Below are positions 6,738 through 23,733 of a stretch of DNA of 64,000 nt, piece by piece. The position numbers were made by a program, and so were the translations under genes. Below the pieces are notes generated by a model. It had not been told where the DNA came from. It did no database searches and worked only from the letters and a program-made list of their open reading frames with translations. Location of the stretch: NCBI GenBank assembly GCA_018261895.1, contig JAGTRT010000023.1:1-64000 (forward strand), written 5' to 3'. Positions within the stretch are counted from its first letter, which is position 1; the number at the start of each line of letters is the position of its first letter. Source of the DNA: Pseudomonadota bacterium (lineage in GTDB: Bacteria; Pseudomonadota; Gammaproteobacteria; Burkholderiales; Rhodocyclaceae).

Positions 6738-7355
6738 ATGACCCGAGACACCCTGAACGCCACGCTGGCCGCCATCGTCGTCGCGGCGTTGATCGTCTCC
6801 GGCATCGCCCCGTTCGACCGGGCGACATGGATCATGGAAGTCGCCCCCGTGCTCATCGCCCTGCCGATCATGGTCGCCACGCGCAAAAGGTATCCGCTCA
6901 CCACGCTGCTCACCGTGCTCATCGCCGCCCACGCCCTCGTCCTCATCGGCGGCGGCGCCTACTCGTATGCCCGCGTGCCGCTCGGTTTCTGGATGCAGGA
7001 CCTGCTCGGCACCGTGCGCAACCCCTACGACAAGCTCGGCCACTTCATGCAGGGCTTCGTCCCGGCCATGGTCGCGCGCGAAATCCTCATCCGCGGCGGC
7101 TACGTCGTCGGCCGCCGGATGACCGGCTTCCTCTGCATCTGCATCGCCATGGCCATCAGCGCCAGCTACGAACTCATCGAATGGGCCGCCGCCCTCGCCA
7201 TGGGCCAGGGCGCCGACGAATTCCTCGGCACCCAGGGCGACCAATGGGACACCCAGTCCGACATGTTCATGGCCCTGATCGGTTCAAGCACCGCCATGCT
7301 CCTGCTCGCCGGCTGGCACGACCGCCAGCTCAAGGCACTCAACCCCCGACCCTGA
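6738..7355 (+). CDS. DUF2238/YjdF-family membrane protein
   Basis: Multiple TM segments, DKLGHFMQGFVPAMVAREIL, GDQWDTQSDMFMALIGS. Confidence 0.7.
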   Translation: MTRDTLNATLAAIVVAALIVSGIAPFDRATWIMEVAPVLIALPIMVATRKRYPLTTLLTVLIAAHALVLIGGGAYSYARVPLGFWMQDLLGTVRNPYDKLGHFMQGFVPAMVAREILIRGGYVVGRRMTGFLCICIAMAISASYELIEWAAALAMGQGADEFLGTQGDQWDTQSDMFMALIGSSTAMLLLAGWHDRQLKALNPRP

Positions 7356-7432
7356 TTTCAAATTTGGGCAAAATTTCCGGTTGACCGTGCAATCCCACGG
7401 TCAACCGGAAAAAATGGCCAAAATCGAAATTT
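7354..7432. repeat. inverted pair of the dispersed ~35-bp repeat (REPIN/MITE-like)
   Basis: gatttcaaatttgggcaaaatttccggttgaccgt - gcaatccc - acggtcaaccggaaaaaatggccaaaatcgaaatt: two inverted copies around an 8-bp spacer. Confidence 0.85.
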
Positions 7433-7652
7433 GCAGCGCGCAGGGAAAGCCAAGCGGCGGAAAATGACATTGCAATTTCAGCGGAAAATTCATACTGTCC
7501 GGTTTGTCGCCCGAAAATTGTCGAAAATATGCAAGCAACCGCCCAGAACCACTGCCACACAATCAACTCCGCCTGTCCTGTCCGCCAGCTTATGGGACAG
7601 GTTTCCGGATTAGGCGACAGTTTTGTCGTCTACTACTAGTTAGGCGCTTTCA

Positions 7653-8054
7653 ATGTCCGGGCTGATTGAAGTTTCGGTTGTTGCTGTTGCAGCTTTCGCA
7701 ATCGGTGCTGTCGTTGAGAGAGTTCGCCTGCGTAACTACTGGCGTCGCACATGCACTGGGTTTGCGTGGCGGCGTCACTTTCCGAATGCACGAAAAGAAG
7801 ATATACGTTTGTTCTTAGGGCTATTCACGGAAGCCTTTGCATTTCCTGATTCACGTCGTCTTTGCTTTGCTCCAGCCGACAAACCACTTGATGTCTATAA
7901 GGCTCTGTATCCGTTTCCAAAGTTCATGGCCGATTCAATGGAGCTTGAAACATTTCTTGAAAGCGTTAAAGAGGCCTTTGGCGTTGATCTGCTTCCCGTG
8001 TGGCGGGAGGACGTGACTTTGGGTGAGCTATATGCCAAAGCTACCCGCGCCTAA
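7653..8054 (+). CDS. integron cassette protein of unknown function (133 aa, N-terminal TM)
   Basis: ORF starts 8 bp after GTTAGGC; stop codon TAA lies in the GCCTAAC box of the following attC. Confidence 0.75.
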   Translation: MSGLIEVSVVAVAAFAIGAVVERVRLRNYWRRTCTGFAWRRHFPNARKEDIRLFLGLFTEAFAFPDSRRLCFAPADKPLDVYKALYPFPKFMADSMELETFLESVKEAFGVDLLPVWREDVTLGELYAKATRA

Positions 8055-8120
8055 CAATCCGGTCCAGCGGACCGTCAAAAAGCTACGCTTTTTGCCGTCC
8101 GCTGACCTTCCACGTTAGGC
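8049..8120 (+). repeat. attC site 1 (72 bp)
   Basis: GCCTAAC...GTTAGGC ends; inner arms GGTCCAGCGGAC / GTCCGCTGACC complementary with one unpaired base; terminal AAAAAGC-TAC-GCTTTTT hairpin. Confidence 0.92.
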
Positions 8121-8124
8121 ACAT

Positions 8125-8424
8125 ATGAAAATCTGGCCCGGTCAAACTGAAGACTTCAAGCCTCCTCTCCTGTCGCCCAAGGAGAAAGGAAATCTGTGGT
8201 TGGGTCTTGCTGGCATCTTTTTCGTTGGTTCGGCCACTTCATATTTTTATCCGTCAGCCACGCCCTCTACCGGTCGCTGGGCATGGCTCCACAATATCTT
8301 TTTCAATCAATTTGGCCCATCGGGAGACTTTGTCCTTTTTCTAGTGCTGGGCTGTGTGGGCGTTCTAGCCGCGCTCAAGCAGTATTCCGCTTACTCAAGC
8401 GAAAAAGGCGGCACTAATGCGTAG
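8125..8424 (+). CDS. integron cassette small membrane protein (99 aa), unknown function
   Basis: ATG 5 bp after attC1; two predicted TM helices (LWLGLAGIFFVGSATSYFY, FVLFLVLGCVGVLAAL). Confidence 0.72.
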   Translation: MKIWPGQTEDFKPPLLSPKEKGNLWLGLAGIFFVGSATSYFYPSATPSTGRWAWLHNIFFNQFGPSGDFVLFLVLGCVGVLAALKQYSAYSSEKGGTNA

Positions 8425-8433
8425 CCCAGCATT

Positions 8434-8514
8434 GCCTAACAATGCGGTCAAAGGCGCTCCCTTCGGTCGCTGGACGTCCCGCAAGCGGGCCGCCCTTTAC
8501 CTACAACGTTAGGC
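8434..8514 (+). repeat. attC site 2 (81 bp)
   Basis: GCCTAACAATGCGGTCAAAGG...CCCGCAAGCGGG...CCTTTACCTACAACGTTAGGC. Confidence 0.9.
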
Positions 8515-8519
8515 ACCTC

Positions 8520-8810
8520 ATGGGCTCGCTAGTAGCATTCATTGCCGTATTTGCTCTGTCCTACGTAAATGGAGTTTGGATGGTTCGCCATCTTCAAAAA
8601 GTTCATCCAGCCGTATCAGCCCAGCTTGGCAAGCCAACACTTACGCAAAGCAATATTGGGGCGCCACGCTTAGCATTAACAAAGTTTGTTTGGTCGCTTC
8701 AATTTCGCTCGCTTAACGACCCGGTGCTCTCTTTGAGTTGTGTAGTCGCTATGCTTAGCGAGGTCGCTATTCTTTGCATCGTCATTGCCGTTCTGGCCGG
8801 AAAACCATGA
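8520..8810 (+). CDS. integron cassette small membrane protein (96 aa), unknown function; its 3' attC is missing
   Basis: ATG 6 bp after attC2; TM helices at both ends (LVAFIAVFALSYVNGVW, VVAMLSEVAILCIVIAVLAG). Confidence 0.7.
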   Translation: MGSLVAFIAVFALSYVNGVWMVRHLQKVHPAVSAQLGKPTLTQSNIGAPRLALTKFVWSLQFRSLNDPVLSLSCVVAMLSEVAILCIVIAVLAGKP

Positions 8811-8828
8811 GTATGTTTCCCAATCCAG

Positions 8829-8880
8829 TGACCGTGCAATCCCACGGTCAACCGGAAAAAACGCCCAAAATTCAAATTTT
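8829..8880. repeat. dispersed repeat copy with truncated inverted partner
   Basis: tgaccgtgcaatcccacggtcaaccggaaaaaacgcccaaaattcaaatttt; same spacer as the 7354 pair. Confidence 0.85.
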
Positions 8881-10451
8881 CAGGGCGGTCGGGTCGGCGC
8901 GCATGAGGCGTTTGTTCATCTTGCCGACGCTGGTCTTGACCAGGGTTTTCACGAAACTAACCTGCAACAGCACGCCGTAGCGCGACACGCCGGCGGCCTC
9001 GATGGCGTGGGCGGCGTAGTTGCGCATGGCGTGTTCGGTGATCTGGCCGACGAATTCCGGTTTGAGCAGGACGAGGGCGAGCGGGCGTTCGCCCCATTTG
9101 TCGTCGGGGACGCCGATGACGGCGACTTCATGCACGGCCTCGTGTTTGGCGATGATGTCTTCGAGTTGCAGTGACGACGTCCATTCGCCGCCGGTCTTGA
9201 TGACGTCCTTGATGCGGTCGGTGACCTTGAGGCAGCCGGCCGGGTTGATGTTACCGATGTCGGCGGTGTGCAGGTAGCCGCCGGCCCACAGGTCTTCCGA
9301 GGCCTCGGGCGCGGAGACGTAGCCCTGGGTGAGCCAGGGCGCGCGCACGACGACTTCGCCGGTCGCCTTGCCGTCGTGGGCGACGTCGGCCATCTCGGGA
9401 TCAACGATGCGCAGGTCGACGAGCGGCAGGGGCCGCCCGGTCTTGGCACGAATGACGGCCTGTTCCTCGAGCGAACGATTGAGGTCGGCGCTGTCGAGGT
9501 GGGCCAGGCTGAGCACCGGGCAGGTTTCCGACATGCCGTAGCCGGTGAACAGGTCCATGCCGCGCTTCTGGGCGGAAATGGCCATGCCATGTGCAGGATG
9601 GTTGGCACGCAATGCGAGAAGCTGACGCCTTCCTCGGCAATCAGCCGGCAGATCACGTCGGGCTGGTAACGGCCGGGGTAGACCTGCTTGACGCCCATCA
9701 TCGTCGCCAGGTACGGGAAGCCCCAGGCATGGACGTGGAACATCGGCGTCATCGGCATATACACGTCTTCGCGGTGGATGTGGCCCTGGGCGTTGGCGCC
9801 GCCGAGCGCCGCGGCGCAGCCCAGCGTGTGCAGCACGAGCTGGCGATGGCTGAAATAGACGCCCTTCGGGTTGCCGGTCGTGCCGGTCGTGTAGAAGGTC
9901 GTCGCCTGCGCGTTTTCGTCGAAATCGGGGAAGTCGTAGGCGGGCGATGCCTCGGCCAGCATGGCCTCGTACTCGGCGGCCATCGTGACCGGCACAGCGG
10001 GCATCTCGGCCTCATCGGTGAAGAGCACGAAGGTCCTGACCGTTTCCAGCGCCGGCGCAATCTGCGCGAGGATAGGGAAGAATTCGCTGTTGACCAGCAG
10101 CACGTCGGCCTTGGCGTGGTTCAGCGTGTACAGGATCTGCTCCGGGCTCAGGCGGATATTCACCGTCTGCAGGATCGCCCCCATCATCGGCACGGCGAAG
10201 AAGCATTCGAGGTAGCGATGGCTGTCCCAGTCCATCATCGCCACGGTCTGCCCGGCCTCGACGCCCAGCCCGGCCAGGCCGTTGGCCAGCCGGCCGATGC
10301 GCTCGTTGAGCGTGCGGTAGTTGTAGCGCAACCTGCCTTGGTACGTGATTTCCTGTTCCGGCGCGATGGCCAGCGGCGTCAGCAACAGCTGCTTGATGAG
10401 CAGCGGATATTGATAGGCCGACGCCGTGGACTGGACGAGTTTGACTGGCAT
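8872..10451 (-). pseudogene. long-chain fatty-acid--CoA ligase (AMP-binding), disrupted by an internal deletion/frameshift near 9583-9592
   Basis: N-terminal frame ends VSFSHCVPTILHM; C-terminal frame resumes at GMAISAQKRGMDLFTGYGMSETCPVL; the roughly 30-residue stretch normally between these motifs is absent. Confidence 0.75.
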
Positions 10452-23697: not shown

Positions 23698-23733
23698 ACG
23701 GTCTACCGGAAAAATGGGGCAAATTTGAAATCA
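23698..23733. repeat. dispersed repeat copy between mshO and mshP
   Basis: acggtctaccggaaaaatggggcaaatttgaaatca. Confidence 0.75.

Follow-up and report, generated by a model that had tools for sequence, protein, structure and literature searches.

Introduction

CALINs, arrays in which at least two attC sites with their cassettes have no intI nearby (PMC9024848, PMC8618304), are a known kind of array; they may arise via off-target insertion, loss of intI or rearrangement (PMC8618304), and one survey counted 2961 of them versus 2760 complete integrons (PMC9024848). IntegronFinder 2.0 does not detect attI sites outside class 1 (PMC9024848). One CALIN headed by an attI has been described in the Shewanella prophage M16-3, where a second, intI-less array opens with the same type of attI as the element's complete integron (PMC9892861). 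The part of a Xanthomonas report on which we draw describes integrase-less arrays that occupy corresponding chromosomal positions in several species and reports no attI at those conserved places (PMC12444791). Delta-attI-type cassettes also carry attI-derived sites outside the usual place, where pieces of attI replace the attC behind a gene (PMC12901181).

The array analysed here has an attI, attC cassettes and a chromosomal location, as a sedentary chromosomal integron does, but it has no intI in cis, and its genome holds several small arrays rather than one. It differs from an ordinary CALIN in that a conserved leader and a true attI stand at its start, as a multi-copy unit. Whereas the Shewanella case is a single prophage, the family found here is chromosomal, has a leader of its own and occurs as several copies per genome, and its orthologous copies differ in contents; and in contrast to the Delta-attI-type cassettes, the attI heads ordinary cassette arrays. 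A literature search for solo, orphan or secondary attI sites, from which most subscription journals and all preprints were absent, returned the Shewanella prophage case alone and no description of a multi-copy solo attI family.

Results

The cassette array and its attC sites

The array lies in the window, by which we mean the whole 64-kb stretch of DNA that was analysed. The original prediction proposed a cryptic cassette array from the motif GTTAGGC at 7639, 8114 and 8508 and the matching GCCTAAC at 8049 and 8434, and all of these positions were confirmed. A lone GTTAGGC is not rare (6 in the window versus 3.2 expected), and counts of GTTAGGC or GTTRRRY by themselves were dropped as evidence since they show no excess over chance. 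The paired arrangement GCCTAAC-N45..75-GTTAGGC was found at just two sites in the 3.3-Mb genome, both of them the attCs of the window.

Covariance models and folding supported the attC architecture that had been proposed for two palindromes of 72 and 81 bp (Table 1). Model R2 was built from eight 72-bp attC sites and model R3 from thirteen sites of 81-90 bp, taken from arrays at other loci and genomes of the genus, with the window sites left out; their best matches elsewhere in the window had E values of 0.13 and 0.19, respectively. An earlier model with the attC classes pooled (R1) went unused because it held only 11 pairs, and a first Python attC caller, which overlooked attC 2, was replaced. 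For 8045-8122 the folding energy is -26.5 kcal/mol (z -7.2) on the bottom strand and -22.3 on the top strand; for 8430-8516 the values are -19.9 kcal/mol (z -2.8) and -17.6. Both bottom-strand hairpins have extrahelical bases and unpaired spacers. An attC covariance match and a bottom-strand hairpin with unpaired bases, on which the original prediction had staked itself, were therefore both found. A search of Rfam gave nothing relevant to attC, just chance miRNA matches.

As proposed, three compact ORFs on the same strand begin 5-8 bp past a GTTAGGC, the TAA stop of ORF 1 falls within GCCTAAC and hence inside the attC box, and the array is richer in AT than its flanks (GC 0.511 versus 0.622 for the whole window). 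Neither R2 nor R3, run over the window, gave a match beyond 8514, leaving cassette 3 without an attC. The cassette products have no convincing Pfam, NCBIfam or PADLOC family and no relatives among the other arrays fetched; an AlphaFold prediction for the product of cassette 1, made with no alignment, had a pLDDT of 55. The window holds no tyrosine-recombinase ORF: Pfam Phage_integrase was detected at five places in the genome, none of them on the array's contig (C31), for which neither a Phage_integrase nor a TIGR02249 match was listed. With two attC sites and no intI near, the array is a CALIN under the working definition of at least two attC sites and no integrase nearby, and to that extent the earlier CALIN reading stands; what it had not noticed is an attI at the head, as in a complete integron, here with no intI adjoining it, and the family to which the locus belongs. 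Searches of plasmids found no similar array or leader, and a search of phages no similar leader.

Table 1. Features of the array locus and its flanks (window coordinates)
Feature	Position	Strand	Details
DUF2238 membrane protein gene, left neighbour	6738-7355	+	PF09997, E 1.4e-55
Dispersed palindromic repeat, full copy	7355-7430		Its right half, from 7396 on, forms the left edge of the solo attI unit
Solo attI unit, type A	7396-7645	+	Leader and attI, no intI; ~250 bp; recurs at intI-less attI
TGTCCGGTTT block	7497-7506		142 bp before the crossover; read from aligned rows
attI	7573-7645	+	Crossover between G7639 and T7640; ends in the first GTTAGGC
Cassette 1	7640-8114	+	ORF 7653-8054, 133 aa; no family match
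attC 1	8049-8120	+	72 bp; covariance model R2, 95.2 bits, E 7.3e-27; fold
Cassette 2	8115-8508	+	ORF 8125-8424, 99 aa; no family match
attC 2	8434-8514	+	81 bp; covariance model R3, 95.9 bits, E 2.8e-25; fold
Cassette 3	8509-8828	+	ORF 8520-8810, 96 aa; attC missing
Direct repeat of 7382-7440	8829-8887	+	59 bp, 90% identical; right edge of the array
Acyl-CoA ligase gene, right neighbour	8872-10451	-	Frameshifting deletion

An attI and a leader at the head of the array

The window attI is 90-99% identical over ~70 bp to the intI-linked attI sites of four genomes (G028, G025, G074 and G087). The stretch 7573-7642 is 90% identical to the DNA upstream of an intact intI in Dechloromonas sp. SB18 (G028), 83% to the corresponding place in Azonexus hydrophilus ZS02 (G008) and 72% to the site that adjoins a broken intI in the window's own genome, and intI-linked sites in other members of the genus reach 97-99%. 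In the aligned rows, identity with the intI-linked sites ends at GTTA, with G|TTA as the expected crossover. Judged from these alignments, the window array is an attI-anchored array without intI and not a set of cassettes at a random site.

From the left repeat to the first cassette there are 210 bp, which include the 7573-7642 match, and the block of leader and attI is 87% identical over 245 bp to a second copy in the same genome (contig C45). According to the aligned rows, TGTCCGGTTT corresponds in intI-linked sites to the reversed start of intI, and it lies 141-145 bp from attI in all types of solo site. Descent from an intI-attI module would account for this similar spacing, or the block may itself belong to the site. 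The intI-linked relatives carry a LexA-like box, CTGTATGGATAACCAG, between attI and intI, which the window lacks. A scan of the leader with a simple consensus found no sigma-70-like promoter.

Flanks and repeats

The gene order recQ-DUF2238-ligase is conserved in G002, G005, G006 and G008. The gap between the DUF2238 and ligase genes is ~30-75 bp in G006 and G008, and another gene lies between them in G002, which indicates that the window array is an insertion or a replacement. The original prediction placed the array between the DUF2238 gene and a broken ligase gene; it does lie between both genes and not inside the ligase gene, which is indeed broken, by a 79-nt frameshifting deletion near 9586 relative to G005. 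That deletion may be genuine or may reflect an assembly error.

A 59-bp direct repeat (90% identity), itself a portion of a common dispersed palindrome, brackets the array, and a similar right-edge repeat is present at C45 and C84 of the same genome and in G075. Cassette 3 has lost its attC and so probably ends, on the right, in a deletion that runs into the repeat. The repeat may stand at the array edges partly by chance, being common, and we regard it as mainly a common intergenic repeat. It has the form TTTCCGGTTGACCGTG / CACGGTCAACCGGAAA, and matches at least 43 places genome-wide, the window having about one site per 6 kb (7355-7430 and 8829-8877, and for example 4920, 14015, 23698, 24532, 31611, 40467, 49890 and 58246). 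The idea that it regularly frames AT-rich cargo was rejected, as the close pair at 23698 and 24532 flanks ordinary GC-rich DNA.

A family of solo attI units

Matches to the attI were found in 28 of 77 genomes of the genus, several of which have two to four copies. We sorted the copies into those with intI in the usual place and those with no intI, here termed solo. Leader and attI without intI recur at several loci per genome in Azonexus/Dechloromonas, including C45 and C84 of the window's own genome, and sister types occur in Azospira. Three types were distinguished: A (the window type, ~250 bp), B (~240 bp) and C (Azospira, ~510 bp). Within each type, unrelated loci have the leader in common and an identical left edge; three Azospira copies are 89-90% identical over 500-610 bp. 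Same-strand attC sites follow within 2.6 kb at 28 of 37 solo loci, and within 0.9 kb at 24 of these, when model matches with E < 0.02 are counted and mirror-strand matches at the same palindromes are left out; the model search found no attC at the other nine. Some genomes with solo attI sites, such as G070, have no intact intI of the matching type.

In the isolate Azospira oryzae DSM 21223 (6 contigs, 99% complete), a single IntI passes the family cut-off (C3:84197-85135), and an attI adjoins it at C3:85223. Five more attI sites without intI were found at C1:1422757, C1:1536227, C1:1578749, C2:305263 and C3:178012, and each of them stands at the head of an attC array with about 2 to 8 sites. 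Four of the five solo copies have a common right end that holds an inverted copy (~75%) of a portion of the left end, so that the two ends look like the frame of an element. This frame holds other genes at two places and may be a frame for exchangeable cargo. At these places (L197:1875-3339 and L198:2103-3709) it brackets single genes of unknown kind, one encoding 299 aa with no Pfam match and the other 261 aa weakly like DUF4238.

Integrase and further attI copies in the same genome

In the window's own genome, whose assembly is 85% complete, a single integron integrase was found (C82:84599-85054), with profile positions 2-112 and 272-315 retained. An in-frame internal deletion has removed positions 113-271, the catalytic middle, leaving an open frame of 209 aa. 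Beside this gene, close to a contig end, lie its own attI and three or more attCs, and contig C24, with four attCs near its own end, may continue the array. Further attI copies are present on C45 (93%) and C84 (77%), with a degenerate one at C82:65.9k; the recombinase beside the last was considered as an IntI and rejected, being a phage-type integrase by sequence. Downstream of the C45 attI, mostly small ORFs on one strand fill 5.96 kb; two attCs are near the attI and one is further away. Because the intI has lost its catalytic middle and cassette 3 has no attC, the window array is probably frozen in its own genome.

Different contents at orthologous solo attI sites

Four genomes (G070, G005, G099 and G077) have a common left flank, 86-92% identical over 3.4 kb, up to one orthologous solo attI. 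The right flank resumes at about +3520 in G070, +1440 in G005 and +3300 in G099, and the G077 contig ends 0.7 kb past the attI. No similarity was found among the contents between the common flanks in G070, G005 and G099. The models called attCs at +2422 in G070 (weak), +412 in G005, +447 in G099 (weak) and +614 in G077. Likewise, the C45 locus and its counterpart in G075 have both flanks in common and contents of 5.96 kb versus 0.74 kb, the G075 copy consisting of the attI, one SUKH-family gene and one attC before the flank. Such differing contents point to cassette exchange, which would have occurred in trans. Taken together with the 98.6% identity over 71 bp between the solo and intI-linked attI sites of Azospira sp. 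I13, they fit a filling of solo sites in trans by the cell's IntI.

Discussion

Origin of the array

We propose, with a probability of roughly 0.78, that the window locus is a stand-alone ('solo') integron platform, a unit of leader and attI that would have been filled with three cassettes by attI x attC recombination. The ~250-bp unit, with no integrase gene, may derive from an intI-attI module in which intI was replaced beyond its first codons. It would then have spread within genomes as a solo unit, perhaps via homologous recombination between the flanking dispersed repeats, which is a plausible route, and an IntI encoded elsewhere in the cell would have filled it in trans. With the only intI found deleted in its middle and the attC of cassette 3 lost, the window array would now be at a standstill.

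The reading that competes best, though an unlikely one, is a one-off degraded integron, in which an intI-attI-cassette integron lost intI locally and the other solo sites are independent losses. Loss of intI is a proposed origin of CALINs (PMC8618304), and broken or deleted intI genes are frequent in the genus. Simple local loss does occur too, since one solo site (L162 in G071) has retained the start of intI, reversed, along with a degenerate LexA-like box. Against this origin for the window locus, unrelated solo loci have the same 240-510 bp leader and left edge, absent from intI-linked copies, a pattern that independent losses of intI would not produce; the Azospira solo copies have a right end in common as well. 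Far less probable is that an IntI acting elsewhere dropped cassettes at a non-attI site: this is a known route to CALINs (PMC8618304) and single attCs do lie on C27, C88 and C64 of the same genome, but the ~70 bp of real attI that precede the first cassette contradict it. Least credible of all is a misjoined array whose intI sits on another contig: the draft genome consists of 93 contigs and the array is flanked by repeats, but it is internal to a 111-kb contig, its two neighbour genes also adjoin in G002, G005, G006 and G008, and an isolate genome and single-contig genomes show the same arrangement.

Implications of a proposed solo platform

What sets the locus apart is not the CALIN, a known kind of array, but the attI, the membership of a multi-copy family and the way in which contents vary among orthologous solo sites. 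A CALIN is usually interpreted as a degraded integron; in these genomes many of them are anchored at attI, multi-copy and different in contents at orthologous sites. The usual picture of off-target insertion or a one-off degraded integron is incomplete here, given the true attI with its leader, the several solo sites in the genome and the family in related species. Several stand-alone attI sites scattered over one chromosome in related bacteria suggest that many landing pads can share a single integrase. We consider it an even call whether this holds as a general organisation in Azonexus/Dechloromonas and Azospira, where one SOS-regulated integrase would serve several dispersed, element-like attI platforms that multiply in the chromosome as non-autonomous units, perhaps reaching phages, and carry parallel arrays. 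A cell would then have several first cassette positions instead of one, and tools blind to attI would overlook a layer of integron organisation. Cassette traffic in trans is directly testable in the isolate A. oryzae DSM 21223, with its one intI and six attI sites.

Other occurrences of the attI core

Three putative viral contigs from IMG/VR (L200, L201 and L202) contain the attI core and no detectable intI. A possible attC lies 317 bp downstream of the core in L200 and L202, and a serine recombinase and a DNA methyltransferase are encoded near it in L202. Two solo sites of G070 adjoin genes that we named from sequence. At one of them (L160), an ORF resembling a group II intron reverse transcriptase lies on the opposite strand in the cassette region, 0.5-1.8 kb past the attI. 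At the other (L161:3389-5528), a putative tyrosine recombinase and an apparent IS91-type transposase are encoded directly 3' of the attI core, which would fit the insertion of an IS91-like element at that point.
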